The notes under the pieces were generated by a model. The model was not told the origin of the DNA. It ran no database searches and saw only the letters and a program-made list of their open reading frames with translations. Position numbers and translations under genes: made by a program. This document shows, one piece after another, positions 4,700-40,251 of a stretch of 64,000 nucleotides of DNA. Source of the DNA: Fistulifera solaris (Eukaryota > Bacillariophyta > Bacillariophyceae > Naviculales > Stauroneidaceae); assembly GCA_030295235.1 (NCBI GenBank), contig AP026135.1, positions 285,001 to 349,000 on the forward strand. The letters are read 5' to 3'. The stretch's first letter is position 1. The number at the start of each line of letters is the position of its first letter.

Positions 4700-7600
4700 T
4701 CATTCATCGAATTCATCATCATCGTAACTGCCATCTTCTTGGCTGTTGTAACTTTGTGATCCCTCTTCATCGTCGCGACTGGAATAACTGCCGGATCCTA
4801 CTTCGTCGTCATTGTAATGATTTCCCCTGCTACTTCTGCTTCTGGGCCCCTCTTCGTAGCTTCTTGAGCCATCGTCATCGTAAGAACCTTGTTCTCCGTC
4901 GTCATAGCTTCGAGAGCCTTCTTCATCATCGTAGTAGGATCCTTCACCATCTTCGTAGCTGCGAGAGCCCTGTTCGTCATCATAACGAGATCCCTCGCCT
5001 TCTTCGTAGCTGCGAGAGCCCTCTTCATCGTCATAACGAGATCCTTCGTCTTCGTCGTAACTCCGCGAGCCGTCTTCGTCATCGTAGTAAGACCCTTCGT
5101 CTTCTTCGTAACTTCGTGAGCCCTCTTCATCGTCGTAACGAGACCCTTTGCCATCTTCGTAGCTGCGAGAGCCCTCGTCATCGTCATATCGAGATCCTTC
5201 GCCTTCGTCATCGTAACTTCGTGACCCCTCTTCATCGTCGTAACGAGACCCTTCGCCATCTTCGTAGCTGCGCGAGCCCTCGTCATCGTCATATCGAGAT
5301 CCTTCGCCATCGTCATCGTAACTTCGCGAGCCCTCTTCATCGTCGTAACGAGACCCTTCGCCATCTTCGTAGCTGCGAGAGCCCTCGTCATCGTCATAGC
5401 GAGATCCTTCGCCTTCGTCGTAACTTCGCGAGCCGTCTTCGTCATCGTAGTAAGACCCTTCGGCCTCGTCGTGACTCCGTGAGCCTTCTTCGTCATCGTA
5501 ACGAGACCCTTCGCCTTCGTCGTATGATCCTTCGCCTTCGTCGTGGCTGCGAGAGTTTTCGTCGTCGTAACTCCTGGAACCATCCTGGCCATCATCGTCG
5601 TACGCGCCGTCATCCTTTTGGGAATCGCCTTCTTCGTCGTAGCTATTGGCGTCATCGCTATAACTTGCCGAGTAGTCTTCGTCGTTGTATTCATTTTGTT
5701 CAAAAAGGTCATCAGCAGTTCGTCGAATAGCATCCGCATCTTCGTATCCGTAGTCTTTGTCGTCCACAACAGCGCTCCCTTCCTCACTCCTAAAATAGCT
5801 AGCCTCCTCACTGCCTTCCTCAGTGCGTGATTGGTCGTAGCTTCCAGATTGCTCGTCTCCAGATTGCTCATCGTCATCATACTCGTCATCGTAGCTCCTT
5901 TCTTCGGAATAGCTGCCTTCATCAGAATAACTCCCCTCGTCCGAGTAGCTGCCTTCGTCTGAATAACTACCTTCGTCTGAGTAACTGCCTTCATCTGAGT
6001 AACTACCACTGTAGTCTTCATCATCATATTCATCTCCCATATTAGCCCCCAATGTACTAGCGGCAGCAATTGCAGCAGACCCATCTGTACCTCCTGCAGT
6101 AAAGTTTCGCGCTTCACGCTCGGGAATTCCCTTGCTTTTGTGCACAGCCTTGCGTGCACGTTGGGTGGCCGAACGAGCCGACATGGTTTGAAGAGTGTTA
6201 ATGAGCTCTGCTTCTCGTCCCGCAAACTGGTCCAGCATGTTATCGATATTGTCGATTTCGTCGGGTACGCACTGCTTGACGAGTTCCTCAACTTGCTTTC
6301 GATACTTCTCTCTGCGTTTCATTTCTTGCGGAGTGAGGTTTGGCTGTGATCGAGAATCTGCTGTTTCGTCATCGTCAACTTGGCTTGACTCATCCTCATC
6401 ATCGTTAGCAGAATACTGACTCCCATCATCTGTGATTTCGCCGTTTCGGGATGTTTCCGCTTTTGTAGGAACCGACAAGTCATCAAATCCTTCAAAACCT
6501 CTAGCCGCTTCCATCACGCCGTCCCAATCACCGCGATCGACCATTGCATCGAGATGACGCATATTTTCTGGTTGCACAGTTGTCGTGCGACTCACACCAT
6601 CGGTGCGGGAAAATTTGCTATTTTCATCATAATTACTAGATTCACTTTCAGTGTAATCGTTTTCATCACTTGGGTCGGCATCTTCTGTTGAAACTTCTTG
6701 AAAGCCCATGGCGTCAGCTTTCCCCATGCATCTGTGTCGTTACTAACCCACCCAAACACATCATCCGATTTCTTCAATTCGTCAGGATCGTCAAAAGCGT
6801 AGTTGGCAACATCTTCAACATTTTCGTCGAAATCCTTTTCATCGACTTGGAAGTCAAAATCCTTGTTGTCATCAGAAGCTCCGACTTTCTTTTTACCAAC
6901 CAGGCCACCAGTAGCTTTACCAACGACACCCAATCCTACGTCGCCGACTGTTTTCGTTCCCTTTATAGCTGTTTGACCTACTGTCTGCACACCTTTCACC
7001 ACTTCTCCTCCCACGGTTAAAACACCCTTTTGTACACCTTGCACAAGAGTCCCTCCTAAACCGCCGAAAGCATTGAGAACATTGCCGGTGGTCTTATCCA
7101 GTGCACCACGCATACGGGATCGCTCTCGATCTTTCGATTTTTCTGCGGCAAATGTGCCAGTTACCGGGTCCTCCTCACTTTCTTCGTCGCTATCTGGGAC
7201 CACAGTGTCAGGTTTGGCAAATAGACCACCATTATCTGAGTCATCAGACTCCTCTTCGAAACCAAAACCATTTTTTGACTTGTTACCTGGCGCCCTCTCA
7301 GCTTCGGCGCCATCGTCACTGCCGTTTTCGGTTGCCTTGCCAGATTTTCTTTTCCCTTTTAAGTTGGAAAGGCGAGAAGAAATGGTCGAGAAATCTCCGC
7401 CCTCCGAAATGAAACGATAAATGCCATAACCTCCTGCCAGAACTAAAAAGATGCAAACACAAATGATGATGATAACCTTCATAGGAGACCCGCCACCACC
7501 TTCATTGACTGGCGTCAGCGGCTGATCCGAAGGTGGTGCGGCCGGCGGCGCAGGCGAAGCGTCACGCTTTTTATGTCTGCGGTTCCGACAACACTTATGG

Positions 7601-10046
7601 TCACTGTATCATCAACCTGCTCTAGTAAGCCCTGTAAGGAATTCTCTCTGGTAAGAGCGGCCTGCGCATACTTGGTCCAAGCATCTTGACGATCTTCATT
7701 AGCGAAGAGGACATCAAAAGCGGCATAAACAGTGATACAAACTGTAGATTGTTCTGTGATCGAGTCCGGACAAGTCGTATCGACAATATCGAAGAATTCG
7801 ATGGAGTCTTCAACGAGAGCGGTGACTTGTACTCTTCTTTGATAACGCAAGTATCTTGTTGCCTCACCAGCATTCGACTCTTTCAACGCTGTGAGCTCGT
7901 TAACGACCTGCTTGACAAACTGGTCGTAAGCTGAATCTAAGGCCCGGCGGTTCTTCCCTGATCGTAATGATGCGGCACCCAAACCGGCCGAGTTCGCCAG
8001 TACAAATGCATTATAGATCGTTTGCAATTTAGGGTCAGCAGGCGAAGCGGTAGGACCAGTAGCGGTGGGCTCGCCACCAGGAGTTGGTGCAGATGGCGCA
8101 ACATCTCCTAAAATAGCCTTTGCGGTAGCTTTGCAGACATCTTCCAAAAACTTTTCCTGATCTGCAGTGACATTGGTTCCTCGAAGTGCGCCTCTAATGT
8201 TTATAGACAAGTCGTCTCCATTTTCAGTAGCCAGCGCGAAAAAGTTATCTTTCAAAACATTTGGAAGATCATCAAAAGGGTCTGTCAACGCGATATCTTC
8301 GGTGTTTCGATTCAGGAAACGCACATACTCTGATTGGTCCATTTTGCTGTCGCGTGACAGGTCGGCTATGACCATATCTTGTTTACATGACTCAATATCA
8401 ATCTCAACATCGGTCCCTCCTGGTGAAGCAGTCGGCGTGCCATCGCCATCTCCAGCAGCAGCTGCCGCGATTGCGTTTTCCGTAGTGTCACAGACAAATT
8501 GAAGATTACTTTGTTGTTCATCTGTTCTTTCAGCATCAGTATTCCCTTCTACAGATATCATGTCACCCACCGTGTTGCCGTTGGTGGATGTCAACGACGT
8601 GAATGCGTCTTTCAGCTCTTGTACGAGCCCATCGTAAGTACCATAAAGTGCACGGATATCGATCTCTTTTTGAGGGAGTCGCGTCAGAAATATGAAATAC
8701 TCTCTGTCGGACAGAAAACCATCTCGGGTAATATCTGATTGAGAGATTACCGACAAGCAATCTTCGAATGTGAATAGTTCCGCTACCTCTCCTGGAGAAC
8801 TCGATGGCGTGTCACCTCCACCTCCTGCCGCAACATTCATTGCTGCTCTTGTATCATCACATATCATTTGAATGGATCTGTCATCACCGTCCACAGAGAG
8901 CATGATTCCGTCTCCATTGCTAACAACCAATGCATTGTAGCTATCTTGCAATGGCAGGGGCAAACCGGCAAAATTAGCATACTCACGGAAAAATCCATCT
9001 CCCACTCGATCCAGAAACAGAAAATGTTCTCTTTTGTTCAATTTACCATCACGTGTGATGTCTGAAACCTGAAGATTGGATTTGCAAGTATCAAAATCAA
9101 AAGTGAATTGCCCATCAGCGCCACCTGGTGCTGGTGCAGTTCCAGGAGCAGGAGCCGTTACAGGAACCGGTGAAGCTACCGGAGCAGGAGCTGTTACAGG
9201 AGCCGGTGCAGCAACCGGAGCAGGAGCTGTTACAGGAGCCGGCGCAGCAACCGGAGCAGGAACTGCTACAGGAACTGGTGGAGCTACCGGAGCCGGCGCT
9301 GTTACCGGTGCAGCCACGGGAGGAGTTGCCCCGTCGCCATTTTGCGCGAAAATACTAGCCACTAAAGTTTGTCGGCATAAATTTTGAACAAATGCCTTTT
9401 GTTCTTCAGTAGCGTCGCGGTGTTGTGTTTTCCCTCCGTACAAATCAATCGAACCGACACTAGGTTCAATGAAAAGTTCAAAGACGGCCTTCACGGGCCC
9501 CGGTAACTCGACAAATGGCGTGGTTAAACCGTACAGCTCTCCTGACAAGCGATCGACGAAGCGCGTGAATTCCAACTCTCGATCTAATCTGTCATCTCTT
9601 CCAATATCCGCCAGCGAGACGGCTAACAAACAACTTGTGCTGGTAAGCTCCAGACCGGAACCGGTAATAATCCCCGAATAAAGTCCAGCGCAAGTTCCTG
9701 CTGCCGCCGCAACATCCGTAATGGCCAGTGGGTCCTCGAACGCCTCTTGTAATTCGGGCGGTAATGCGGCAAATTGAGCGACGGATATCCCCGAAAGCGA
9801 TCGGATGGCTTCGACGAATTCTTGTTCGTTTAAGAATCCGCTGGCGTCGCTGTCGGCACCCTTCAATGCATCAAAACACGGAGCATAGGTCGTAGATGTG
9901 GGAAGCGGAGCCGCTGCTGCCGCACCGAAGAATGCCGGAAGAAGGAGCCAGGAACGTTTCCTCCGCCTCGAGATTTGGGGTTCGATGGGTTTGCTATGCC
10001 ATCTTCGCCGCCTTTCACTTTTCTCTTCTGTACATCGCGGTATCAT
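4700..10046 (-). CDS. Giant type I membrane protein: EF-loop repeats, TM, acidic tail
   Basis: Not a family I can name. From the N-terminus it has a basic leader and hydrophobic signal (SWLLLPAFFGAAAAAP), then five repeats of about 110-130 aa. Each repeat starts with a cysteine and carries one EF-hand-like loop such as DITRDGKLNKRE or DLSRDSKMDQSE. An Ala/Pro/Val linker is encoded at 9125-9330. A juxtamembrane module at 7620-8030 and a proline-rich stalk follow, then one membrane helix (VIIIICVCIFLVLAGGYGIY, near 7430-7480). The cytosolic part has over 900 residues: a conserved block near 6180-6310, then an extremely acidic Gly/Ser/Tyr/Asp/Glu tail to the stop. Three frames are involved; adding one base to the run at 7568-7572 and one at 6722-6725 unites them into 1782 aa. 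It is divergent to, and paralogous with, the gene at 11405-15699. Calcium binding is inferred from the loops. Confidence 0.75.
4750..5580 (-). repeat. In-gene minisatellite encoding GSRSYDE / GSRYDDEE units
   Basis: The end of the acidic tail consists of about twenty degenerate units of roughly 40-50 bases. They encode alternations of GSRSY plus acidic residues and GSRYDDEE plus acidic residues. Unit boundaries stay in frame and changes are mostly synonymous or Asp/Glu swaps, so selection on composition is likely. A separate six-residue repeat (GSYSDE) is encoded near 5900-6010. Confidence 0.85.
9125..9330 (-). repeat. Ala/Pro/Val tandem repeat in ectodomain linker
   Basis: A run of near-identical short units (APAPVTAPAPVA and variants) separates the second and third EF-loop repeats. 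The DNA is built from repeated 'ggagcaggagc(t/c)gttacaggagcc' type blocks on the plus strand. It probably forms an extended, possibly glycosylated spacer, and its copy number may vary between strains. Confidence 0.8.
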
Positions 10047-11404
10047 TATTTTTTCTTCCAGTTCTAAATACTACTCATCCGAAAGAGGCGATGAGATTGG
10101 AACTTGCCACAACATGCAGCAAAAGCCCTTCGTATTGTCGCTTCCGCAAAATCACTTGTTGCGTTTTACGAGGAGGTGAAGACGAAGAGGGCACTTTTCC
10201 AACAAGGAATGGGATTGACACTGTCGAAGGGTGTGTCGGTTGAAACGATCAACCACCGTTTTCAACCAATCAAATGCCAGTTGTACTCAGTCTTGGTCAC
10301 TGAGTCACGAATTTCAGTACGAGTAATTTGATTTTGAGTGCCAGATGTAGTAGTAGGCCTTTACTTCGTTTGAAATGTGAAAATGTCAAAGACATTTGTA
10401 CGCACACAAATTAACCCCCAAAGGTCTTCCATTCTTTGGCGAACGGAACGCCATTTTCTTTCATCGACGGGTCGAAATAGGCGAGAGAAGATGTTTTGAA
10501 AGACGATGGCGCGCACAACATTCCGTTCAATAGCATTAATTACTAGACAATGAGACCTGCTTCTAGCCAAGACAGCTAAGTCACATTAGGGCAGCCACTC
10601 CTAGAGTAATGATAATAGACTACAATGTTTTCCACCAACGGATCGACGCCTTTCCATGAGAACACAAAATAATATTGAGTAGTTAAAAGAAAAACAATGC
10701 TCCAGAGCGAGCAAATTACAACCAATTCATTTCCTTGAGTTTGTGACTTCCTGAAAGAAAATTGCTTTTTTTGGTCTTTTCAAGCCTCATTGATGCATTC
10801 ATCAAAGTTCAAAGGAATCGCTATTTCAAAGGTACACAAAGAAAATCCATGTAATTCATGCTACCTTTAGAACTTCTATTGGACACAGAGAGGGTCTTAT
10901 TCAAAGAGATGATAATATAATAGACCGTATGCTTTGGATTTTGAACAACGCAGTACATTATTTCATTTGTCAGTCGTGTCGAGACATTCAAGGCAAGAAA
11001 GAGTCATAATATCGCAGCAGCATTGCTTTCAGCCGCAGACACCACCGCCAGTACGTAGTATCATTTTTTTTGTACAGTCTCATCGAAAATTGTGACCCGG
11101 TTGACTTTTTTGGATGATGCACATCAGTTGAATGCCATAGTGCGCGTACCCTACTTTCAAGTAGTTAGTAGCTAGGCATTTCGACGATTTTTACGAGGCG
11201 TTCAACGATTATTGCCCCTGCGGACAACGTCGCACAGTCTAAAGCGAACTGTATGAGAAGCTCCGACCAAGATAGGGCTTAAACTTTATGTCGTACATTT
11301 GCTCTGGAACGACTAAAAACCTGATCTTCTATTCCTTTGTCGTCTTGTGCATGTTTGTTGTTGACATCCAAGTGAATTTGCAAACAGAATAGGACTGCTG
11401 CAAA
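10047..11404. promoter_or_regulatory. 1.36 kb spacer between the two divergent giant membrane-protein genes
   Basis: No coding frame of substance is visible. As the only DNA between two head-to-head paralogues it should contain both promoters and perhaps shared control elements. The sequence is A/T-richer than the flanking exons. I saw no tRNA or mobile element. Confidence 0.5.
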
Positions 11405-14400
11405 ATGCCTTCTATCATGTCGTTCTTGGGTAAAAAGCGAAAGATCCCGCTTTGCTTGTTGCTGTTAGCCCAGCTTTCTCATGCGCAATACATCAGTTGC
11501 CGCGAGACCCTTACGAGTGCCAATCTGGATGGGGACGCAACGTTGCAGGCCGCCGAAATTCCAGGATTTGTCTTTCATCTCAGTTCCGGAATCGTTGATG
11601 CCGCTTCGGTCGATAGTTTACCCGTGCCTCTTCAAACCGTGTTCAGTTCCCGGGCAAATGCCATTAACTTGCTAGGAATATCGGATCCGACGGCTGCAGC
11701 GGCTCTTCTCGAATTAGAGACGTTCTGCGATGATGTATATAACGCCTTGGGAGAGCATCTGGGGATTGCCATAACGCAAAACGCTTGTATTGGAGCTCTA
11801 CAGACGGCCGATACCAGTCCAGGGAACGGCCGCGTCAGTTTCGAGCCGGAATTTCTCGCCTTTACCACCAGTCTGGCCGGAACCGATTTTGGCGTCACGA
11901 CGGCCGCCGAGTTACCGGCGGGCCTGATTCGCGTCTTTGATGATTTTTCCGGCGGGACGGACGTGAAGAGCTCGGCTGGATTGGAATATCTGGTTCAATT
12001 TTGTCAGCGGACAGCGCTGCAAGCGAAAATCGAAGTCGACAAACCCGACTTGCCGGCCACGACGCCACCGACACCACCTCCGGTGGCTTCCACTAGCCTA
12101 CCTGTACCTCCACTTTCCACCAGCCCACCTGTACCTCCGATGGTTGCTCCAACGCTAAGTCCTGTAGCTGCGGCCCCAATTTCACAACCAACAGCGCCGG
12201 CTCCCGTAGCGGTCGACTCCCCAATTCCACAACCAACAGCGCCGGCTCCCGTAGCGTTCGACTCACCGAGTCCAGTAGAAGCGCCGACATCGACCGGATT
12301 TGTGCTGACTGATGAATTTTACGCAAGTTGCTTAACAAGTATGCAATCATCTGATCAAAATGGAAACAATCTCATGGAAAGTTCAGAATATCCAGCTTTT
12401 ATTGATGGGATACTGGAGGGCACTTATGCGGAAACACCCTTCACTGAATTAGACCCACTGTTTCAAACGGCTTTTAACGAAATGGCGGTAGTAAGAGATA
12501 GCATCAATATATTTGGGGCAAAACCAGGAGAGTCACCAGACGCAGATCAGACTTCTTATCTACGGAAAGTTTGCTCCGCAGCGGGTCAAGCCGATTTCGA
12601 TCTCAACAGCGATGGTGGAGAATCGACGCCAGTTCCTGCTCCTGCTGGTTCGGAAACAACATCGCCAGCTCCCTTGGCGCCAGTCGATGGATTGGTGAGT
12701 CCGGAATGTCAGGCAGCGATTGATGCCGGTGGGTCATGGTCGCAAGATTCATATGCGCTGTTTGTGCAAAAGCTTGCACCCAGCTTGGACGGGACCTTTG
12801 AGACGCTTCCTTACTTGCTACAGGACAACTATAGGTGGATCATGAATGGAGAAGATACTATCATGATACCCGATACGCCTTATGGTGAGGCATATTCTCG
12901 CTTTATATGCGATCGGACACAGAGGCTCATTGACCAGCCCGAAAAAGGCCAAACGCTGGAGGAGCAATGTGTGATAGCGTTAGAAATCGCTGCCAGTGAC
13001 GGTGCAACTTTATCGCAGAACGAATACGTTGTCTTCTTAAATCAAATATCAGGATTCGCATGGGAAGGAATACAATTTGACGCGTTAGATTTGCTTTTGC
13101 GAGATGTATTTGAGGAGAATGAAGTAGAGGGGAAAGCTGTGGCAAGCTCGAATGACTTCTGCGAAGCGGTGTCACAAGCCCTCGGAGCTACACGCGCTGA
13201 AAATGCTTTCCACCAACAGTGCATAATTTCACTGTTAGCGGCTAACACCGATCTCGACAATAGCCTATCAACAGCGGAGTACGCAGAGGTCGTTTCTACA
13301 CTTGATGGTAGCACGGACGCCGTCGCCGCATTCGATGATCTTTCTAGCGATGCAAAAATAAATTATGAACTATTTGCCGAGGATAACGGTGTTCAAGTGT
13401 CAGGCCTCCTTACACCAAATCGAACTCAGGAAGACTCGGAATCTCTGCGAGGCTTGTGCGATAGTATCAGAGCAATCATTAATGATCCCATTGATAGTAG
13501 GAATGCCACTCGAGTGACAGTATTTAACGCTTTTGTTCTACAAAATGATTTGGGGTTCACACAGAGAGACTTGGAGACAGGAGTACTACGAAATACTCTA
13601 GAAAGCGCCTACCGAAACTTTGTAACAGCACAAGTGGCGAAGCTGGTCAAGCCCACAGGCGGCCGACGGAAGCTCTCTGCTATTGTCCTACTAGATGATA
13701 CTATTCGACTGTATCGGATTGAAGACAACCAATGTCCAAGTGGAGCAAGCGGTAGTTGTCAAAGAGTTTATGGTTCCTTTGACGTGGAAGCCGCGCAGGA
13801 CGATTCAAATCTCTCTAGTGAATACTCTTCAGCAACTCAGGCAGCAATCGATGATGGTGCATTACAAGACGAGGTCACCAAACTTGACCCAGACTTTGAG
13901 TTGGTTGTATTTTCCTCGTCAGAAGTGTTGCGCCCTGGTGAAGGGGTTTATCCTAGTGCTAGCACGGGTGGAAAAGATAAAACCGTCCTTGTAAGCGTCT
14001 TGACAATTCTTTCCGGGGCTCTATTTGGAATGCTTGGTGCAGCTGCAGTGGCCTATTATATTGTGCGAAAAAATCTTCCCGCACCAGGAACTGAGACAAA
14101 CCCCGTGAAGGCAGACCCGGAGCTGGCTTTGTTCGACCATTTCGACACGAATGATGAGAATAACCAGACAGAAGCGCCTACAGATGATCCATATGGGCAC
14201 CTTGCCCTTTTAACAGAAAATCCCGAACTACAAGCACCAGGGATGTATCCGAACAGAGCCGAAGTGAGCAATCTGAGGAGTTTGAGCGGTATGCCATTGA
14301 CGCAGATGAGGCTAATCAGAATTTTAATTTCCCCGCTTCTCAAGCTACGTCTGACGAACAGAGTGACGATGAAGGCAGTATTAACAGTGACGCCATGTTT

Positions 14401-15699
14401 CAAAAAGAGGAGAATAGATGGAGCAACAACTCGCCAATCATCTCTCCGGTAAATGAACGCGGAAGAAAAGAGGAGGTAGATGCCCAAGTCACTAGCCCTG
14501 GTCAAAATCAATTTAGTTATGAAAAGGAGGACCATTTGGACGACAATGATGACGATCCTTATCACATGGATCTTCAACCATTGCAGTATGGAGCGTTAAG
14601 GCAACCGTCTTCGCCTTCTTATGAACAAGTAGGGGCGCAACAGGAAGAATTGGATCAAGTTGAATCATTGAACGCCTCAGCTTTTAATTCTGAATACGAT
14701 CTTCAAAATCTTGAGGACGATATTCAAAACGATAACACGATGCAAATGGCACCGCCCCATGATAGCGACGAAGAGTATTCAGTGGAAGTTCAAGAAGAAT
14801 TTTCTGAAGAAGTTCAAAATGAAGAATTTTCCGAAGAATTTCAAGAAGAAGAATTTTCGGAGGAAATAGTTGAGGAAATGGTCAGTGAGTCTGAAGTCGA
14901 CGTGGAAGATATCGATGAAGAGGGAGAGAGCGAGGACGAAAGAAGTGCCCTCGCGGACGATGCCGATTTGGAAGGCGAGAGCGAAGAGGATGATTGCGAA
15001 GAAGAAAAAAGTGAGCATGAAGAAAGCGAAGAAACAGAAGATGATGGTGAAAGTGACGGTGACTCAGAGAACGATAACGCGGAAGCACCACCTCCTTACC
15101 GAGATGAAATCGCGGCTTTGATGCAACAAGTCATGCCTGATGAAATGGAAAACCTTGACGCAATGCTCGAACAATTTTCGGGAAGGGAAGCTGAATTACT
15201 TGAGACCCTTGAAAATATGGTTAATACCGGCAGTGATGACGATTACTCAGAAGAATGCGAGGACGGTGAAGAGGATGACGAGGACGATGAGCAGGAAAGA
15301 GAAGTGGGCTCAGAGGAAGAAGAAGAAGAAGACGAGAGCGAAGAAGAGGAGGAAGAAGAAAACACTAAGTCAGCCGAAAGCGAAAGTGAAGAAGAACAAG
15401 AAGAATTAGTAGAAGAAAGTGACGCTGGCGAAAGCGAAGGGGAAGAGACTGCAGCAGGAGAAAGCGAAGGCGAAGAATCCGAATCCGAAGCAGCCACTAG
15501 TGAAGAAGAAGAATATGAATCTGATGCAGCTGAAAGCGAAGAAGAGGAAGAAGAGGAGGCTGCTAGTGAAGAGGATTCGGAAACAGAAGAGATTGAGGAA
15601 GAGGAATCGGAAGAAGCCAGCGAAAGTCAATCCGAGGAAGAAACAGAAGCTCCAGAAGCTAGTGATAGCGATGACAGCGATGACAGTGACAGCAGTTAA
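11405..15699 (+). CDS. Giant type I membrane protein, paralogue of the 4700-10046 gene
   Basis: Same architecture as its divergent neighbour. A signal peptide (KIPLCLLLLAQLSHAQ) is followed by six cysteine-started repeats carrying EF-like loops of varying quality (ANLDGDATLQAAE and NTDLDNSLSTAE good; others decayed). Pro/Ala/Ser linkers, a juxtamembrane module at about 13490-13880 and one membrane helix (LVSVLTILSGALFGMLGAAA, near 13985-14070) follow. The roughly 530-residue cytosolic tail is rich in Glu and Ser. Inside it lies a block near 15100-15215 (PDEMENLDAMLEQFSGREAE) almost identical to one in the paralogue's tail. The frame breaks once; adding a G to the run at 14240-14242 gives a continuous 1431-aa protein ending in SDDSDDSDSS. 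The tail differs in composition from the paralogue (Glu/Ser rather than Gly/Tyr/Asp). Function unknown; a calcium-responsive surface or internal-membrane protein is a guess. Confidence 0.75.
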
Positions 15700-17499: not shown

Positions 17500-19782
17500 T
17501 TATAATTGTGAGTGCACGTGTCTCTTCCGAAGCAATGTTAGCTTTCGTTCTGGTTGCGCATTCCGACTCGATATGAGTTTCGATACTTCAATTGCCGTCA
17601 TGTTCCTAACATCAATGTCATCAATTGCAATTAGTCGATCATCTACACAGACCTTATCACCGAGAATAGAGGAGTCCTTGATTGCATAGACCACGGGGGG
17701 ACCCTCGTTTGGAGTATCAATAATGAGACCCAACTTCCCGGCTGGCGCGATAACATCCAGGACTTGTTCATTACGGGCCACGCTGCCAAACAGTCGGGTC
17801 GTTTGATTCGCTCGCACACTACTGCTCCCTCGCGAGCTCACTGAACTGGATGCGGATCTTATGCGATGCTTGTTCTCGTACGCCATCACTGCTTCTGCAC
17901 CAATCTTAACCGGAAACACGGAATCAGGAGCAGACACGACGCTGTCTTCTTCCAGCTTATTGAAATCGTATACTAACGAAGAGCCAGAAGTGGCCGAGTT
18001 CACCGATCGTATTTGATCACGCAAAACGTAAGCCTTGTCGTAATCATACTCATCCGTAGCAACACTATCATAAGTAAGAAAAAGGTGTGAGCAAGGGCTA
18101 GTTAACATGAGCAGTCGATACCAAATGAATAACGTACCTTTGAAGGCCGTAGCTTTGTCCTTTTTCCAAAGAAGCAACCTTCGATATCACCGGTTGTTCG
18201 GGGAGATCTTGCTCTACATCCCCAAATTGATCCTCTGGGAGTTCCGAGTTTGTCGATAGCTCATGTGCTTCGTTGCCTTTGTCTCTTTGACGCTTTCTTC
18301 GATTAAATCCAACAAATGCTGCGAGAGCTAGAGCAACAATCAACAGAGCAAAAGAATACCGACAATACCACCGGCACTCATTCCATCGTCATAGCTATCT
18401 GGTTTATCTGGCTCTTCACCGTTGCCTGCGCCCTCTTGGTCAGGTATGACAGGAATAGCTAAAGGTACCTCGACTTGCCCCATATTTGAGAATGTCTTTA
18501 AGATATTTCCATATTCCTTGTTGCCGACATTGTCTTCAAAAGGCAAGGTAGCGTATTCTTCTGATGACAACGTACCCTCTCGAGCCACATAGGTCAATTC
18601 TTGATCATAAATGATGGTATTGATGGAGGTGTTGGTTTCATCCACCGTCACATTATTTGACACAAACGAAATTTGTGTACTGACATTTTCAACATTGCCC
18701 GCTTGCAAACGGCGTAAGGGACTAGGACCAGGGCCACCCCCGAAGAAGTTCGTAAACCAATCAGCTGTTGCTTTTTCCCATTCTTCGGTTTCGACCAATT
18801 CTCCCGCATTTCTCAACGTTAATTGCAGGCCACGCAATGCTTCGTTCACTACAGATCCTTCCGGTGGAGCCACTGGCGCATTGACACGAGCCGTCGGACT
18901 CGGTGAACCAACACTCGAAGGTGCACTGCTCTGAATCGCGCTGGGTGCGATGGTGGGTGAAATGCTCGGTACCAGAGATGGACTCGTGCTAGGCTGATCT
19001 GACGGCTGAGCTGTGGGTGACGCCGTCGGCGACATCGTTGGGGCGCGCGTTTCTCCCGGCATCAAAGGAACTTCCACTGGGAGCTCTAAATCCTTCCAAT
19101 TCAAACCAGAGCGCAGCCGTTGTCCATACTGTGTATTGGCGTCAAATAAGGTAAAGGGATATCGAGCATAGAAGACGGCCGTGTTGGACCATGGATATGC
19201 TTCAAACGCCACAAACTGCGAATAAATAATCTCTATATACGGGACATTGTTCACGGTATACGTTGTTTGATTTTCGAGTACAACAAAGGTCCGGAAATTG
19301 AAGAGGGGCTGATCACTGGTGGTCATTACTTTCTCATAAAACTGGAGCATCCACTCTTCGGTTAAAGTTTCCCAAATGATAACCTCCTCTTCCTTAAGGG
19401 CCTTCACTCCCTTAAACCGTATTTCGATCATTTCAACATTTTCGCGTACTGCAACAGTTGTCACCACGGTTGGTTCTGGAAGAACGACACTGGGTGTCGG
19501 TGCTAAAGGGGCCGTCGCGTTCGAAGCCACTGGAGCAGATGGAGAAGTTTGATTGGAAGTCGAATTCGTCCCGCCTGTCGTGAAACTAGTATTTTGTGAA
19601 ATTGGCGTCGTTTCATTGGAAAGCGTAATCGTTTCATTCGTTGTTATGTTTTGTTGTGGAGACGACGTGATGGTTCCATTGACGAGAACAGCAGTACCAT
19701 TCAGTGGCCTTGATGGCGCATCGCTTGGTTGCGCAGCAATCTGCCGCAGCAGGATAAAGATCAAAACAGGAAGGAGTCTCAT
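17500..19782 (-). CDS. Type I membrane protein with duplicated ectodomain and PDZ-like tail (copy 1)
   Basis: First of four paralogues. Order: signal peptide (LLPVLIFILLRQIAAQ), an Asn/Thr-rich N-glycosylation-prone segment, ectodomain A (about residues 115-250), an SPT-rich linker (APTMSPTASPTAQPS), ectodomain B (GLQLTLRNAGELVETEEWE onward) containing the RXL-type site PLRRLQ, one membrane helix (LIVALALAAFVGFNRRKRQR), a charged region, then a C-terminal PDZ-like domain (APAGKLGLIIDTPNEGPPVV to AIEVSKLISS). Exons are 18138-19782 and 17500-18064, with a 73-base intron of phase 2 just before the PDZ exon. The membrane helix straddles a break at 18350-18353; adding one base there gives 736 aa. 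Likely binds cytosolic partners by the PDZ module. Ligand unknown. Confidence 0.8.
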
Positions 19783-22849: not shown

Positions 22850-24947
22850 TCATTCCATAGGAACGTTTCGAATGATGGTTAACTTCCGCGATGGATTGTT
22901 GCTTTTCTTTGATATCAATTTCGAGACGCGAATGGCCGTCATACTGCATACATCTTCATCGTCGACAGCCACTAGTTTGTCACCGACTTGTATTTGATCT
23001 GCAATCACCGATGTGTCTTTGACGGCATGTACCACCGGTGCACCGTCGTCGGGTGTGTCAATCACCACTCCCAATTTTCCGGCGGGAGCAATAATGTCTA
23101 TCACTTGCTCTTGGATGCCACTGTCACGAAGCTGCGATTCTGCTCCCAAAGCAGCTAATGCGGCTGTATTGAGTGTCCCCGCAGTCAATCGAGTCGTATC
23201 GCCCATAGTTCCGCCGGCACTGGAAACCACAGATGTATCACCGCCACCGTAAAGCTTGGAGTAGTCGTAATCGACCGTTGCAACACTGAAATGACCGTTC
23301 CGTAAGCAACAATGTTGCCAGACAAATAGCAATATATGTACAGAATGATCTTACCTTTGATCACCGTAGCCAACATCGAGGATCTTGCTCTCGAATGATT
23401 TTTTGTTTAGGAGGCAGATACGGATCTTCCATTAATGATAAATCTTCTTCGCTAGGACTGATAATGAACTGAGGAGACACTTCCGACTGATTGTCACGTT
23501 GATCACGTTGTTCGACACCCACACTGCCGTCACCACTTCCTTGAACGAAACTGTAAGCAACATAGGCGCATACCAACAGCACGGCAGCACCTGCCACTAT
23601 AATACCGATCAGAACACCCATCGACAATCCGCTGTCATCGTCGTCATTACCTCCTTCTCCTTCTTCTGGTGTGGCGTTTGGACCGAGTATACTTGGTACT
23701 TCCAAGGGTAAAACAAGGTCCCTCATATTGGCAAATTCTGTCCGCAACAATTCTCCGTATTCCGTGTTGGCTGCTTCATCATTGAAGGGCAACAAGGCTA
23801 CGACTTCAGCATCAGGGGTGTCATTCGTAGCAGCATAATCCATTGTTTGGTTGTACAAGATTGCATTATCTTCGTCCTGTCGAACAAACGTAAAGGCGCT
23901 CACCATCGATGCTTGCAAGCGTCGACGACCATTATTGACAAAGTAACCTTCAAACCATTCGGCCGTCACTCGTTCCCACATATCAATCTCATTGTCTTCC
24001 AAAACACCACCACCTTCCAACGGCAACCGAATGTTCATCAAACTGACCTCTACGGGTTCCACGGGAGTAGCGGCCGCACTCGGTGCCAAGGATGTCTCTA
24101 CCATGCTGGGTACCGCCGACGGCGCTTCACTGGAGGCTAGTGCGGTAGGCGCTTGACTCAGCACGACGCTCGGACTCTCACTCGACGCCAAAGTAGGCGA
24201 GACCGATGGAGCCGTCGTATTCCGCACTGTCGGCAAAAGAGATGTTGTCGGTGCCTCGGTGGGAGCAAAGGTAGGTGCCCGTGTTTGTCCGGGTAACAGT
24301 GGTACCGCAATAGGAACTTTCAGATTTTCCCATCCGGCAAACGTCAGATTTAACGCCGTGGCGTATTGCAAATTTCCTTCAACTGTCGTCAACGGATACA
24401 CCGCGTAATAACCAGGCGTCTGGGTCCCATTGAGCGACGTGTAGGTGAGTACTTGGGAATAATTGAATGTGGTAACAATCACTTCGTCCCGCAACACACT
24501 GTTCTGCGACAGAAAGGAAATCACGGTCGTAAAGTTGCGAATGCCAACGTCGTTTTGGGCATAAAATTGATTGAAAAAGTTTCGAGTGACGTTTTCCCAC
24601 AACGAATAGCGTTCTTCTGCCTCAATCAGTGGAGGAACATTCTCAAGTTGCAGGGTAATTCCGGAAATTGTAACGTTGACGGGGAACGATTGAGACACCG
24701 GTGGAAGACTGGGAAGGGTGGTGGCTGTCGGCGGTGCTGCTGTAGGTGGCAGCGACGTCAAAGGAGGGCCCGTGGACGAATTGGTGGGGATGGGAGAAAG
24801 TGGATTCGTCGTAGGAGAAAGTACCGGAAATATAGTTACAATAGTTGCATTGGTTGTGTTGGTCGTATTCGTAGTATTGGATATTTGTGCGACGACGAGT
24901 GGCATCCAGCAAAGCAAGATCAGAAACCGTCTATTCATGTTTCTCAT
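22850..24947 (-). CDS. Type I membrane protein with duplicated ectodomain and PDZ-like tail (copy 2)
   Basis: Closest relative of copy 1. Signal peptide (MNRRFLILLCWMPLVVAQ), an Asn/Thr repeat, ectodomain A (GITLQLENVPPLIEAEERYS to WENLKVPIAVPLLPGQ), SPT linker, ectodomain B with the processing-like site GRRRLQ, an acidic stalk, membrane helix (MGVLIGIIVAGAAVLLVCAY), a cytosolic linker and the PDZ-like domain (APAGKLGVVIDTPDDGAPVV, VGDKLVAVDDEDV, AIRVSKLISK). Exons are 23355-24947 and 22850-23285, with a 69-base phase-2 intron placed exactly as in copy 1. ATG 24947 is used; ATG 24938 is also possible. The A run at 23399-23404 seems one base too long; shortening it gives 675 aa and restores the junction motif GYGDQ before the intron. 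Confidence 0.8.
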
Positions 24948-25414
24948 CTGTGTCGTTTTACTAAAACTAGCTATAATGTACCTCTTGCTTCTTCCCATCC
25001 AGCAAATGATGGCTGTTGGTCTTGTAAAATAATAATCAAACGATCGCTATTGCTTGTAACTTGATTACTACGTATTTGTTTCTTGCCGTTTTGAGTCGTC
25101 GACGCCAAGCGTAACAGACAATAGTCGTTGGCATTGAATTCCGGCGGTGAGATTCGTTGCAATTGTTTAGAGTACAAATGCAAGTCCAACGGAAATGATC
25201 GTACTATCGAGTATGAAATTCAAATCATGTGCCCGTAAGTTTGGAGTCCCGCCGGTATCCTCTAACGGAAATTCCCACCTCATTCGTTTTTCCATGGAAG
25301 AAGCTTTTCGGTACCGGTACCGTACCTGTACGACAAACAATCTATGATCCTGGCTTGTATTCAGTACCGCTACCGGTACGGTACCGTACCCGTTACCCGC
25401 GTAGTATCCATTTC

Positions 25415-25499: not shown

Positions 25500-26217
25500 A
25501 GCTTGAAGCCTCTCAACGTTCCCAATCAATAGCTACTCCTGCAGGTATTTGAAACATTCTGAGGATCGTTTAGCATTCAACTGTCATTTGAAAGCGCCTT
25601 CTTCATTTCAAGGGAAAGTTGAAACTTGAAACTAGTTTCCTTCTGCTTGGAGTTGGAGTTTTTCCCCGTGGTCACTTTACACCGTGAGATAAAACAAACA
25701 TGCGGTATCACTTTAGACGTTTGTTTGCCTCTTAGAATGATGCTTTAAAGTTGGAAACTAAATCTCTCTGGTAAACAATAATCGCTAAAAAAACCTTTTT
25801 GGAACATGCAGTCAACAAAATCATTTCTCCCAACAACTCGATTCTTTTTTAAAATCAAGACTAGACTAGTTGATCCCATCTCATCCCATGTTCTCTAGTA
25901 CGTCCTATCAAGTTTTCGGAAGGACAAAAGGATTGGATTGGGAAACACCCTTGAGTTCGTCGAAACGTGATGTGCGATGCCAGCGTGGACGCGTGGATGC
26001 GGCGGCGGCGCGCGTCCGATCCCGCATGTCCTTCCCCCGAGGACTTTTTTTACTTAGAGAAGACTTTGGTGAAAATAGCTCATACAGTAGGCGACGTTTC
26101 GAATCGGAGTATCGTCATTATTGCACCGTGCGCAACGCCATGTTGTCTCACGATTCACGGACGAAAAGTGGAATGCATCGATCGCAGCCAATAAAGCGAA
26201 AACAAAGGACAACAAGG

Positions 26218-26244
26218 TTCATTCATTCATTCATTCATTCATTT
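26218..26244 (+). repeat. ATTC tetranucleotide microsatellite
   Basis: A run of five to six perfect ATTC units about 65 bases upstream of the start codon of PDZ copy 3, so probably in its promoter or 5' leader. Length is likely to vary between strains. Confidence 0.9.
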
Positions 26245-26307
26245 TGCGAGCTCCGAGTGAATAAAAAGAGAGGAATATTGAAAAGAGTTAATTATACCGC
26301 ATTCGCA

Positions 26308-27600
26308 ATGATCAAGCAAGTCTTTCTCTTCGTCTTTTGGATATTACCAATAGTAAATTCTCAATTTACGGCTTCTCCGACGACTCCTGTCATTGAAACT
26401 GAAGCGCCTGTCGCGGCCCCGACATTGCAACCAACGGTCGGTGCCATTGCCACCGAATCACCCACACTTCTCAGTACATCGGAACCGACGCAATTGCCTA
26501 CCGCAGCACCTGTAGCCGTTCCTGTCGCTCTGCCGGTCGCCGTCCCCGTCGCGCCGCCACCTACGGTCGCACCGATTCCATCTCCTGTGGCTGCCCCGAC
26601 ACCGCCTCCTCTTGCCCCTATCGTTGTATCGACCAGTGCTCCGACCCTCTTTTCCACTCCGGATGTCATTGCCGTGACACCTTCACCAACGGCGGCGCCC
26701 ATCATTTTCTCGTCTCCAATTGCCACGACGCTTTCCCCGACAACTCGACAGGCCATCGAAACGTCTCCTCCAACCTCGACTTCGGACTCGGGCAGCAACA
26801 ATCCTCCACCCACGAACCAAGAGGATGACGAGTTACTGAGTTTACCGGCCTGGATTGGGATTGGTGTCGGAGGCTTGATCGTGTTGGGATCGATTGTCTT
26901 TGTCGCCCTGCGTGGCGGTGGCAACAGTAGTGGACAGACGGTGCCTAGTCGGCACACCAAAGATACGCGCATGTCATCCCAGCCCGAAGTCGAAATTCAA
27001 ATTACGAATGATGACGATATTTCGACCATCGGGTATCCCACCGTCGCAACTCGTTCGTATCGTGGCGATCAACAAAGGTAAGTGAAAATGAATGTAGAGA
27101 CCGGTTTTTCGCGTACTTGGCCATGTTGTGTTTCTCATCCTGCCTAACTTCCTCTTCTACAGTCTCCCGACGATCGATTACGATTACACGAGATCCTACG
27201 GAGCCGGTCAGGATGGGTCGGTGGTTTCCAGTGCCGCCGGTACCATGGGCGATACCGTAACTCCTTCGGTGACCACCACCCTTCTGAATCGGATGGGTGA
27301 TACACGAGCACCCTCGGAACGATTCTCGAAATCGACACGTGTGGTGGAAATTGTGGCACCCGCGGGGAAATTGGGGTCGTCTTGGATGCTTCCGACGATC
27401 CGGAAGATCCGATTGGCTGTCCGGTTGTGCATACCGTCAAGGAGAATTCTCCCTTAATTGGTCAATTGCAAGTTGGAGATAAATTGATCGCGCTGGATGA
27501 TGATGATGTACGTGGTATGACGGCCATGCAAGTCTCAAAATTGATTTCCATGAAGAGTGCCAATCCGCGAAGGAAGTTTACCGTTCTGCGTCCTTTATAG
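26308..27600 (+). CDS. Short PDZ-like membrane protein lacking ectodomains (copy 3)
   Basis: A cut-down paralogue of 402 aa. Signal peptide (MIKQVFLFVFWILPIVNSQF), then about 165 residues of Ala/Pro/Thr/Val-rich low-complexity stalk with no copy of the A/B ectodomain, then a membrane helix (IGIGVGGLIVLGSIVFVALR), the motif DDDISTIG shared with copy 4, and the PDZ-like domain. Exons are 26308-27077 and 27163-27600; the 85-base phase-2 intron sits at the same place as in the other copies. Inside the PDZ domain the G run at 27373-27376 needs one more base; then LGVVLDASDD continues to VGDKLIALDDDDV and a stop at 27600. The domain insert (DASDDPEDPIGCPVV) is longer than in the other copies. Confidence 0.8.
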
Positions 27601-29079: not shown

Positions 29080-30524
29080 ATGTTGTCGATTCAAGTTGTC
29101 TCGTTACTTTCGGTGCTGACTAGCATGGCCACCGCAACACCGACTCCATCGCCAAGCGCCCTCTTTACGCCAAATGACAACCCGACACTTGCCCCAACAT
29201 CTTCTTTGACGCTGTGGGATAAAGTGAAACCTGTTGCACCATTGCCAGCACCGGTCAAGCCACCGACAATATCACCGACGTTCACCCCTAAGACTTTGAC
29301 ACCCACCATTGCCCCTACAATATCACCAACACATACTCCAACTTCTCTCGCCTCCGATTTTCCTTCCTTTTCTCCGACCGTGTCCACCAACGAACCCTCC
29401 ACGGCCCCCGTCGTGACTCCCACGAAACAGCCGACAAATGGTACTTTTATTACTTCCGTCCAAGTGACGAATTTGCAATTGAAGCTCGTGAATGCGGGAA
29501 CCTTACTCGAGAAACATCGATGGAAAGTCGCGACGGAAGCGTTTTACAACGAATATTATGAGGACATTGAATGCAAGGTGACCTTTGTGCGATCAGAAAA
29601 AGCGAAGAACCGAAAATCAACACCATTACGTATGATCTCCTGTTGCAGTCCGAATTCTTTGCTCTGAACAATCCGATGCAATACGCGCTGAAACCCTTTC
29701 GAAATGAAGCCGCGAATTTGCAATACGGGAACGATTTGCGCACATTGCTCAACTTTGAACGTCTCACTCTCCCTCTGGCGGTCCCAACCCGCATCACCGA
29801 TGATTCTGATCAACCCAAGGAGAAGATGTTGGGTTTGCATGCACTTTTGGGAATTGTTGCGGCGGCTTTGTTTGTTGCATTTTTGTTGCTGTGCTGGTGC
29901 AAGCGTACGCGTCGTCAAGAAAACAAAGCGTCCGAGGCACCCATGTCGACGTTTCGAATCTCTTCTGATGATGACATTTCCACCATTGGGCCCATTGATA
30001 TCGTGGATAGTGAAAAAGGGGGAAGGTAGGTGTTCGAGTGCTTTTGGGGTGAACCTTTAAGTAGCCACAAGGTTTCTCATCTCACGCTTTGTTGGTTCTT
30101 CAGCATCAATTCTGGCGACGATGATTTCTCCAAGGAAATGGACGGCCATAATTTTGGTCGAGCAATCATTTCGACTATAAGCCGAAGAATGTGCATGGGT
30201 GGTTCCAGCAATAACGGCGAAGAAGCGCGCGATGACGAGGAAGCAGTTGATTACACGGCAGGCGATTGGATGGAAGTTGTTGTGCCTTCCGGAAAGCTGG
30301 GTATCATCATCAACACTCCCAACGATGGACCTCCCGTTATCCACACAGTGAAGGAAACGTCGGCTGTGATGCATCAGATTCAAGTCGGCGACAAACTCAT
30401 TGCCATTGACGATGAAGATGTGCAGGCAATGACCGCCATTCAGGTATCCAAGATCATTTCCAGTAAAAGCTCCGAATCTCGAAAGTTTACCATTGTGCGA
30501 CCGTACGATACTGTGACAGTTTGA
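29080..30524 (+). CDS. Type I membrane protein with single ectodomain and PDZ-like tail (copy 4)
   Basis: About 455 aa. Signal peptide (MLSIQVVSLLSVLTSMATA), a Pro/Thr/Ser-rich stalk of SPT type, one ectodomain only (NLQLKLVNAGTLLEKHRWK to LTLPLAVPTRI), a membrane helix (LHALLGIVAAALFVAFLLLC), the motif DDDISTIG, and a C-terminal PDZ-like domain (PSGKLGIIINTPNDGPPVI, VGDKLIAIDDEDV, AIQVSKIISS). Exons are 29080-30025 and 30104-30524 with a 78-base intron of phase 2, as in copies 1-3. The ectodomain frame breaks at the A run 29597-29601; one more A makes it continuous. It stands downstream of copy 3 in the same direction, with the dehydrogenase kinase between them on the other strand. Confidence 0.8.
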
Positions 30525-38343: not shown

Positions 38344-38864
38344 GGTGAAGAAATTGAACGTTGTAATTCTCACAGAGTACGGAGTTTTCTGTTTGTTTAT
38401 TGCACCCCAATGAGAAAAAAAGATCGGGAAGAAAAAAATTCGCGTCTCATTCGCGTGTTGCAGTTTAAACAGCAGGGGTTTGCTTTCCTAAGTAAAGCTC
38501 CCATTCTAATTGCTATTCGTTTTTCACATAGATCGAAAGAACGAGAAGATTTTTTTCATTACTACGGAGTACTATTTCATGGGTACCGGTACCGTAGTAT
38601 GCTTTGTATGTAGTAGTAGAGTTCGCGCACGACGATACGAGTTTGGCGACGGACAGACTGTTAATCCGATCGAGCATGATATTACAGTATCACGAATACC
38701 AGTATCATCACGAAAGTTGGTGCCGACGAGGTGCAAGTCCTCGACGAGGTGTATTTCTCATCTCTTCCAAATCCATTGCAGTCTTCCTTCGCTTGGTGGT
38801 CACCGGAACCAGACGGATTGGTTTACGTTTGAGGCATGCTGATCTAAAGTACACCAGTTCTTTC
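38344..38864. promoter_or_regulatory. Divergent spacer with GGTACCGGTACC palindrome
   Basis: The spacer between the minus-strand serine-rich gene and the plus-strand pseudouridine synthase. It contains 'acggagtact' near 38570 followed by the palindrome GGTACCGGTACC at about 38582-38593. The same palindrome occurs near 25312. No gene seen. Confidence 0.45.
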
Positions 38865-40251
38865 ATGAATCATCGATGCATCCTACGACGCATTTCGACG
38901 ACAACTTCCCGAAAATATACGGTTTCACAATCCACCATGTCCACTTCCGATATACATGACAATCCCTGTTGGGGCTCTCCGGATGCGTGTTCCCTCAAAG
39001 ATCTGCTAGCAAAGTATTCCGATTGGATTGTCTACGATGCCGGTGATTACATCGGTTTGAATAAACCACCGGATTGCCGGATGGATGGACCCCATAAGGC
39101 AACAGTCCTCAAGCTGTTGACGCATCTGTATCCCACCAGCGACTGCAGAATGCATTTCCGGACGAACAAGAGCGTATGGATTTTATTATAAAAAATGTAC
39201 ACCAGTTCGGAGATTGTCAAAGAAGCTCACTGCAGAGGGCGATGGTATTCCTCTGCGTCCCTGTCATCAATTGGATTATGCGACATCGGGCGTGCTGTGG
39301 ATTGCCCGCACGGCCGCAGCGGCCAATATAGCTCGTCAAGCTTTAGAACAACGGAGGGTGTCGAAAACCTATGTTGCTCTTGTTCACGGTCATGTGTCCC
39401 CCAAAATTCCAATTTTCGACAAGGTAGATGCATGGTTGCAACGAACGGAGAGAATGTACCGAAAGCAAAGACAAGGAGTGTCCTTGATGGGATCTTTGCC
39501 TCCTCATTCTATGTTTCAGTTATGGAAGGCTCAGCAATTAAAAAACGATCACAACAAGAAACGAGTTCGACGAGAATTCGTCTTTCAGAACGAGGAATGG
39601 GAACAGTTGTGGGCCCCGTTGCACAAGCATTTATCAGAGCAACCCAAAGAGTTCAACGAGCAGTTGTTGCAAGCTGACTGGAAACTCGTAAAGAAGGAAT
39701 ATTCAACGCTGACGCGGTACTTTGAAGATGTTTCCGAGGCATACAATACTCGACTTGCGAAGCAACGGACTCAACAAACGAAACACGATGATGATTCCGA
39801 ACATATACCACATGTCTTTCGTACATCAGAGGATGTTAAGAGTTTTTTCATTGCGGTGCCGATAGGGCAACACGACAATGAGTTTCCTATGCGGATACCT
39901 CCCAGTTACAAGGAAATGACTTTCAAGGCCGAAAATGCCACTTTACAAGTAGGTGAAGCCTGGATGGACTATAAGCCCTCCCTGACGCGGTGTACCCTAG
40001 TTCAACAAGGAACTTTGGATGGCCAACGCGTCACCAAGGTTCTTTTAGAACCCAGAACGGGTCGTCGACACCAACTACGAGTGCATATGGCTTTGTTAGG
40101 ACATCCGATTGTTGGGGACTTGACATACTGCACCCATCAGAGTGAACGATCTGCGCGAATGTGTCTACATTCGCTTCGTCTCCAAGTAAGTGACCCACTG
40201 CTAGACATGGAAGCCCCTGATCCGTTTACCATAGATGCCGAAACACGATGA
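38865..40251 (+). CDS. RluA-family pseudouridine synthase
   Basis: Isomerises uridine to pseudouridine in structured RNA. Visible family features: IGLNKPPDCRMDGP, the catalytic aspartate motif HQLDYATSGVLWIART, KTYVALVHGHV and the C-terminal signature EPRTGRRHQLRVHMALLGHP. ATG 38865 gives a basic start (MNHRCILRRISTTTSRKYTV) that may direct it to mitochondria. A long insert (about residues 200-300) separates the two halves of the catalytic domain, as in some eukaryotic RluA proteins. Two breaks flank residue 100 (T run 39155-39157, A run 39219-39221). Adding one base to each joins PDEQERMDFIIKNVHQFGDC into the protein, giving 462 aa. RNA target unknown. The 3' ends of this gene and the next converge with 11 bases between stops. 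Confidence 0.85.

Follow-up and report, generated by a model that had tools for sequence, protein, structure and literature searches.

A divergent pair of large type I membrane proteins with cysteine-bounded EF-like lobes and acidic tails in the diatom Fistulifera solaris

The 64,000-nucleotide stretch of the Fistulifera solaris genome analyzed here (the window; C16:285001-349000, where C with a number denotes a contig of the assembly) contains two large genes, A and B, that face away from each other and encode type I membrane proteins. They are a real, well-conserved gene pair, made of known parts in an architecture that recurs in the genome. The explanation that we favor, to which we give a probability of about 0.45 taken as a whole, is that this divergent pair is old and belongs to a larger family of such proteins, and that the two serve as a calcium-stabilized transmembrane linker from the cell surface to the cell interior. 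No description of this family turned up in the open-licence papers searched, as judged by titles and abstract openings. The original prediction, made from the letters of this locus, was of two giant divergent genes with calcium-loop ectodomains and long acidic tails; its observation is partly confirmed, and its interpretation is partly supported.

Both proteins start with a basic stretch followed by a hydrophobic core, continue with cysteine-bounded modules separated by Pro-rich linkers, and then have a juxtamembrane domain, a single strong membrane helix, and a cytosolic tail. The features are as follows, beginning with gene A.

4700..10046, minus strand: gene A, type I membrane protein, 1,782 codons including the stop, with two frame breaks
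9879..10046, minus strand: A signal-peptide-like N terminus with a long basic n-region and the core LLLPAFFGAAAA (from hydrophobicity, not a trained predictor)
9633..9878, minus strand: A module 1, strict EF loop DSDASGFLNEQE
9342..9632, minus strand: A module 2, loop degenerate
9087..9341, minus strand: A linker rich in Pro and Ala; 36-bp tandem repeats lie at 9145-9305
8823..9086, minus strand: A module 3, EF-like loop
8454..8759, minus strand: A module 4, EF-like loop
8103..8387, minus strand: A module 5, EF-like loop, the module modeled by AlphaFold2
7575..8036, minus strand: A juxtamembrane domain, two cysteines
7568..7572, minus strand: run of A residues in the DNA, of another length in the homoeolog; breaks the frame of A in the window copy only
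7420..7476, minus strand: A membrane helix VIIIICVCIFLVLAGGYGI (from hydropathy)
6718..7419, minus strand: A proximal cytosolic tail
6718..6724, minus strand: GGGAAAG at the frame change common to both copies of A
4703..6718, minus strand: A distal tail, 672 aa starting ADAMGFQ, with a GDW stretch, the conserved motif, and acidic SYDDE-type repeats
6137..6310, minus strand: A conserved tail motif PDEIDNIDNMLDQFAGREAELINTLQTM
10047..11404, no strand: divergent spacer between the start codons of A and B, 1,358 bp
11405..15699, plus strand: gene B, type I membrane protein, 1,431 codons including the stop, with a frame break near 14208
11405..11485, plus strand: B signal-peptide-like N terminus MPSIMSFLGKKRKIPLCLLLLAQLSHA (from hydrophobicity, not a trained predictor)
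11498..12037, plus strand: B modules 1 (EF-like loop) and 2 (loop carries an insertion)
12329..12607, plus strand: B module 3, strict EF loop DQNGNNLMESSE
12707..13219, plus strand: B modules 4 and 5, cysteines retained, EF pattern gone
13220..13486, plus strand: B module 6, EF-like loop
13496..13927, plus strand: B juxtamembrane domain
13985..14041, plus strand: B membrane helix VLVSVLTILSGALFGMLGA (from hydropathy)
14042..15696, plus strand: B cytosolic tail, the 458 aa from FNFPASQ very acidic
15097..15222, plus strand: B conserved tail motif PDEMENLDAMLEQFSGREAELLETLENM

These coordinates bear out much of what had been proposed. The two spans agree with genes of about 1780 and 1430 codons and the spacer with one of 1.36 kb, although neither gene is one open frame in the assembly. 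The predicted signal peptides correspond to signal-peptide-like starts on both proteins, and each protein has one membrane helix, with a 19-residue Kyte-Doolittle mean of 2.86 for A and 2.15 for B. Acidic tails are also found as described: the net charge is −163 over the 672-aa distal tail of A, which carries long tandem repeats of the SYDDE/GSR type, and −178 over the 458 aa of B. That these tails are likely phosphorylated had been part of the prediction, and here the support is of a single kind, the count of CK2-like [ST]xx[DE] sites (54 in A and 30 in B). In B, though not in A, the lumenal part (about 780 to 830 aa in the two proteins) is longer than the tail.

The repeats of the ectodomain had been described as EF-like and cysteine started. 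Five cysteine-bounded modules in A and six in B agree with this, but the true repeat is a two-cysteine lobe of about 90 aa rather than a lone EF loop. Each module has two cysteines and the juxtamembrane domain a further two, which accounts for every lumenal cysteine (12 in A and 14 in B). The first loop fits a relaxed EF-like pattern in 7 of 11 modules and a strict PROSITE-like pattern in 2 of 11, one in each protein. The relaxed pattern was composed after the sequences had been inspected; with it, four loops were counted in A and three in B, compared to shuffle means of 0.15 to 0.16, and none of 2,000 shuffles reached the count. Pfam EF-hand_1 matched A at an E value of 2.4e-5, 1.4 bits under the Pfam cutoff, and was over the cutoff in the paralogue on C4; when modules were scanned singly, it was found in 2 of 12. 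An AlphaFold2 model of A module 5 (predicted local distance difference test score, 91.9) has helices at residues 2-8 and 18-28 with a bridge between them. The module has the helix-loop-helix with a 12-residue ligand loop that is a feature of the EF-hand superfamily, and it is predicted from the model to be a lobe like an EF-hand pair in which the second loop is degenerate. Calmodulin, centrin, and parvalbumin resemble it in this loop and, judging by the model, perhaps in the second, helix-strand-helix half; A and B differ from them in the degenerate second loop, in the two invariant cysteines per lobe, and in being type I membrane proteins with five or six lobes each. SPARC is an example of an extracellular EF pair.

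The juxtamembrane module that A and B had been said to share is likewise found, with 32% identity between the two proteins and tblastn matches from B to A at E values of 1.5e-7 and 2.5e-7. The quality of its structure model is too low for a fold comparison.

A second copy of the locus served as our main internal control. In the assembly that was searched (51.7 Mb, 61 contigs), C15 holds a second copy of the gene B stretch at 86% DNA identity, and the first 30 kb of the window is collinear with C15, with long blocks that are 83 to 89% identical (28.8 kb of C15 was compared); for the copy of the A and B locus, block identity is 84 to 88%. F. solaris is reported to be an allopolyploid diatom with 42 homoeologous pairs, and the paired syntenic contigs fit this (PMC5935921). 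The homoeologous stretch, C15:327001-355800, contains 500 N, and the assembly is probably scaffolded. The spacer aligns to its homoeolog in three pieces at 77 to 84% identity, with about 100 bp unaligned. Within the genome, the features on which the original prediction had staked itself hold: the C15 copy of A is open from the start codon past the helix into the proximal tail, and 7 of the 11 EF loop stretches are identical there, the other four having one to three changes.

Comparison of the window copy with the C15 copy by the ratio of nonsynonymous to synonymous substitution rates (dN/dS) indicates that most segments of A and B are under purifying selection. The values for the modules are 0.18 and 0.19 in A and 0.11, 0.16, and 0.28 in B; for the juxtamembrane domains, 0.25 and 0.23; and for the Pro-rich linkers, 0.46 and 0.19. 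Among the parts measured, constraint is strongest in the A tail: dN/dS is 0.055 for the helix and proximal tail together (255 codons), 0.055 for the tail past the frame change, and 0.079 for the acidic repeats. The corresponding values in B are 0.15 for the helix and proximal tail and 0.18 for the acidic tail. A tail more conserved than its own ectodomain suggests a specific role for the A tail, a pattern not seen in the acidic tail of B. In four short segments, changes are too few to interpret: the A signal region (0.45; 7 changes), the B signal (0.17; 5 changes), a short A linker (0.15; 4 changes), and the A helix alone, where 24 codons show three replacement changes and not one silent change.

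All four gene copies, A and B in the window and on C15, have interrupted frames in the assembly. The C15 copy of A reads through the site of the A-run that breaks the window copy, and has an additional break inside the tail. In B, the frame changes near 14208 in the window, while on C15 it does so at about the equivalent of 13034 and again in the tail. The change at GGGAAAG is the one common to both copies of A. Upstream of it, the copies differ in the upstream frame by five silent changes and one replacement; downstream of it, the upstream frame gives no silent and 12 replacement changes, compared to six and six in the downstream frame. In this pattern, the differences between copies switch from one frame to the other across the heptamer.

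How the frame is restored there can be narrowed. An intron was considered by taking all 114 GT..AG pairs of at least 40 nt and suitable phase, with an expected intron divergence of 15%. Too few differences separate the copies in 111 of the 114 candidates (P < 0.02), which are rejected; the pair whose donor is GTGAGT is among them (P = 3e-5). All three survivors use a single weak donor, GTTTCA (P = 0.22, 0.13, and 0.11). Judging from these comparisons, an intron at the shared frame change seems unlikely. The heptamer suits −1 frameshifting, but in the window copy the 109 and 139 nt behind it show no folding advantage over shuffles (z = 1.17 and −0.16). Most likely, both copies carry an error in homopolymer length at the shared break, an intron and frameshifting being live alternatives. 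We prefer this error because frame-breaking single-base differences also occur in A, in B, and in some neighboring genes; other neighboring genes have none, and many of the gaps in B, in the A repeats, and in some neighbors are ordinary divergence. The helix and the tail motif lie within one gene region in the paralogue on C13 and C14, which supports counting the A tail as part of A. Elsewhere in the window, at 38676-40251, an apparent single gene, which we take to be RluA-like, is spread over three frames, a further sign of frame breaks or introns.

That leaves the question of how isolated A and B are. A profile of the A and B modules picked out five further proteins at 19.5 to 59.3 bits; among 120 other window frames the score never exceeded 3.2 bits, and among 1,000 shuffles it never exceeded 9.9. 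The test is not fully independent of the tblastn searches with A or C14 modules by which the five were first detected. These proteins are of four kinds, two of which have a helix and a long tail. One of these two is the C13/C14 protein, with a signal-peptide-like start, one module, a juxtamembrane domain, a helix, and a tail with GDW stretches and the motif; the C14 module scored 23.7 bits against the A and B profile, over positions 1-57 only, and the juxtamembrane domain 16.4 bits, the best of 1,000 shuffles being 6.4. The other comprises two related genes on C3 and C4, with a signal-peptide-like start, one module, a helix, and an acidic tail, whose net charge is −28 in one gene, from a partial frame, and −30 in the other. 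Another C3/C4 protein has about four modules and an anchor-like C terminus, and a C7/C2 protein has a module near a fasciclin domain (E value of 1.9e-11 at C2, but no better than 0.045 in the piece of C7 that was scanned). The C13/C14 and C3/C4 paralogues share with A and B the signal-like start, the two-cysteine EF module, the one helix, and the long tail, the C13/C14 protein also sharing the juxtamembrane domain and tail motif. They differ in having one module instead of five or six, and the C3/C4 tails are shorter and less acidic. Recurrence of the same build within one genome weakens the claim that external calcium loops and internal acidic tails are an unusual mix.

The tail motif, PDEID..LDxMLxQFxGREEEL..L..M, occurs at 11 places in the genome: in both copies of A and of B, three times at C13/C14, in one pair of giant acidic frames, and in one weak pair (E values of 0.0015 and 0.0042). 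It had no convincing match among Pfam families or solved structures and none in viral contigs. We infer that it is a docking element. The weak pair belongs to a protein with a WW domain (E value of 1.8e-8) and RDW stretches, in which no helix was seen in the frame read; this protein, with its motif at C16:922023-922151, is a possible partner or adaptor. At C16:116500-126499 and C15:133000-142999, there are two adjacent giant acidic frames; the first continues into a membrane helix and a set of recurring WDVS-type motifs, and the second bears the tail motif. On C14, the motif occurs twice, about 2.1 kb apart (C14:496050-496217 and C14:498166-498333), with one found in C13; the end of the gene that encodes the tail has probably been partly duplicated.

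How might such proteins work? We propose that each cysteine pair forms a disulfide closing its lobe and that the intact EF loops would be permanently loaded with calcium in seawater or in a calcium-rich lumen. Such constant loading of extracellular EF lobes would make a structural brace likelier than a switch. Calcium would then keep the ectodomain an extended rod, rather than turn it on and off. Lobes and Pro-rich linkers together would form this rod, with the juxtamembrane domain and helix carrying strain, and the rod may hold extracellular polymer or wall material. Inside the cell, the tail would dock cytosolic partners via the conserved motif, and phosphorylation of the acidic stretches could tune docking. 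Placement at the cell surface is where we lean, in preference to the silica vesicle, because relatives of the module adjoin a fasciclin domain or have anchor-like C termini. The layout of A and B fits a hypothetical link in the adhesion motility complex of raphid diatoms, a model that needs molecules spanning the plasma membrane from actin to extracellular polymer and that, in the parts of the paper available, does not name a gene for the link (PMC11420354). This makes the transmembrane-link reading worth testing, although there is no evidence here connecting A or B with the raphe.

In a more elaborate form of the linker, calcium-braced rods would hold extracellular polymer or else silica matrix and transmit force or pattern to the cytoskeleton; the route would be a tail motif that also occurs in adaptor-like proteins of the cytosol, among them one with a WW domain. 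In addition, translation would set the tailed and tailless forms, with the A tail produced only when ribosomes shift by −1 at GGGAAAG. We regard this version as improbable.

Other explanations place the same parts differently. The ectodomains could lie in the lumen of the silica deposition vesicle with the tails contacting the cytoskeleton, as has been proposed for the silicalemma-associated proteins (SAPs), and the general layout of SAP1-3 does agree with that of A and B: a signal peptide (a signal-peptide-like start in A and B), a long lumenal part, one helix, and a conserved cytosolic segment (PMC5647440, PMC10503012). The lumenal parts of A and B are acidic (D+E, 14.6% and 14.2%; K+R, 6.9% and 5.0%), and an acidic pI is given for TpSAP1 and TpSAP3 (PMC5647440, PMC10503012). 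However, in SAPs the lumenal parts are rich in Ser and a conserved segment of 28 aa comes right behind the helix (PMC5647440, PMC10503012), whereas the A and B motif is about 350 residues past it; Ser+Gly is 13.8% and 15.9% in the A and B lumenal parts, compared to 28 to 38% in the N-terminal parts of three CcSAPs (PMC10503012). A Ser-rich lumenal region is not found in A or B, with Ser at 6.5% and 9.5% and at most six per 25 residues. The CcSAP search covered the F. solaris genome, and in what is available of that report, homologues are named in four other species (PMC10503012). Membership of A and B in the SAPs is not supported, their likeness being only in general layout. Together with the fasciclin and anchor-like contexts of the module, this makes a silica vesicle linker rather unlikely.

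A receptor role, in which the ectodomain would sense calcium or some ligand and the acidic tail would be a phosphorylation-driven signaling scaffold, would draw on the CK2-like sites, on the WW-domain protein with the same motif, and on the strong constraint on the A tail. Set against these, EF loops facing seawater would be saturated with calcium, and no Pfam family reached an E value of 1 or less in the A distal tail or the B tail, with sub-threshold matches only near the A helix and the motif; we consider signaling unlikely as well, slightly more so than the silica vesicle. It is also conceivable that A and B are precursors of wall or adhesive material, with the ectodomain shed or cleaved and the tail left as a second product or charge reservoir. 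Cleavage of TpSAP3 on the cytosolic side after the helix, with the lumenal part remaining in silica, offers a precedent (PMC5647440), and the Pro-rich linkers between modules resemble cell-wall spacers. A disposable tail is hard to reconcile with the conservation of the A tail beyond that of the ectodomain, a point that does not extend to B, and we find the precursor quite unlikely. The calcium-stabilized surface linker is the explanation that we carry forward.

Downstream of B, the window contains a run of smaller genes (18340-19782, 23361-24998, 25888-27081, and 29080-30029). Their products have signal-peptide-like starts and linkers rich in Pro, Thr, and Ser, and in most there is a helix at the C terminus. 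The first two each contain two copies of a domain of about 130 aa; the one Pfam match, below threshold, was a disordered PT repeat in the first of them, the second having none. Kinship of this domain with the juxtamembrane domain of A and B was considered and rejected (hhalign probability of 0.1%, from few sequences; best profile score, 2.0 bits).

Diatom gliding and silica patterning are thought to need couplers that cross the membrane, and candidates are few. The family of A and B provides testable candidates, with a likely fold outside and a conserved motif inside. F. solaris is described as gene editable at both homoeologous copies (PMC13276009).

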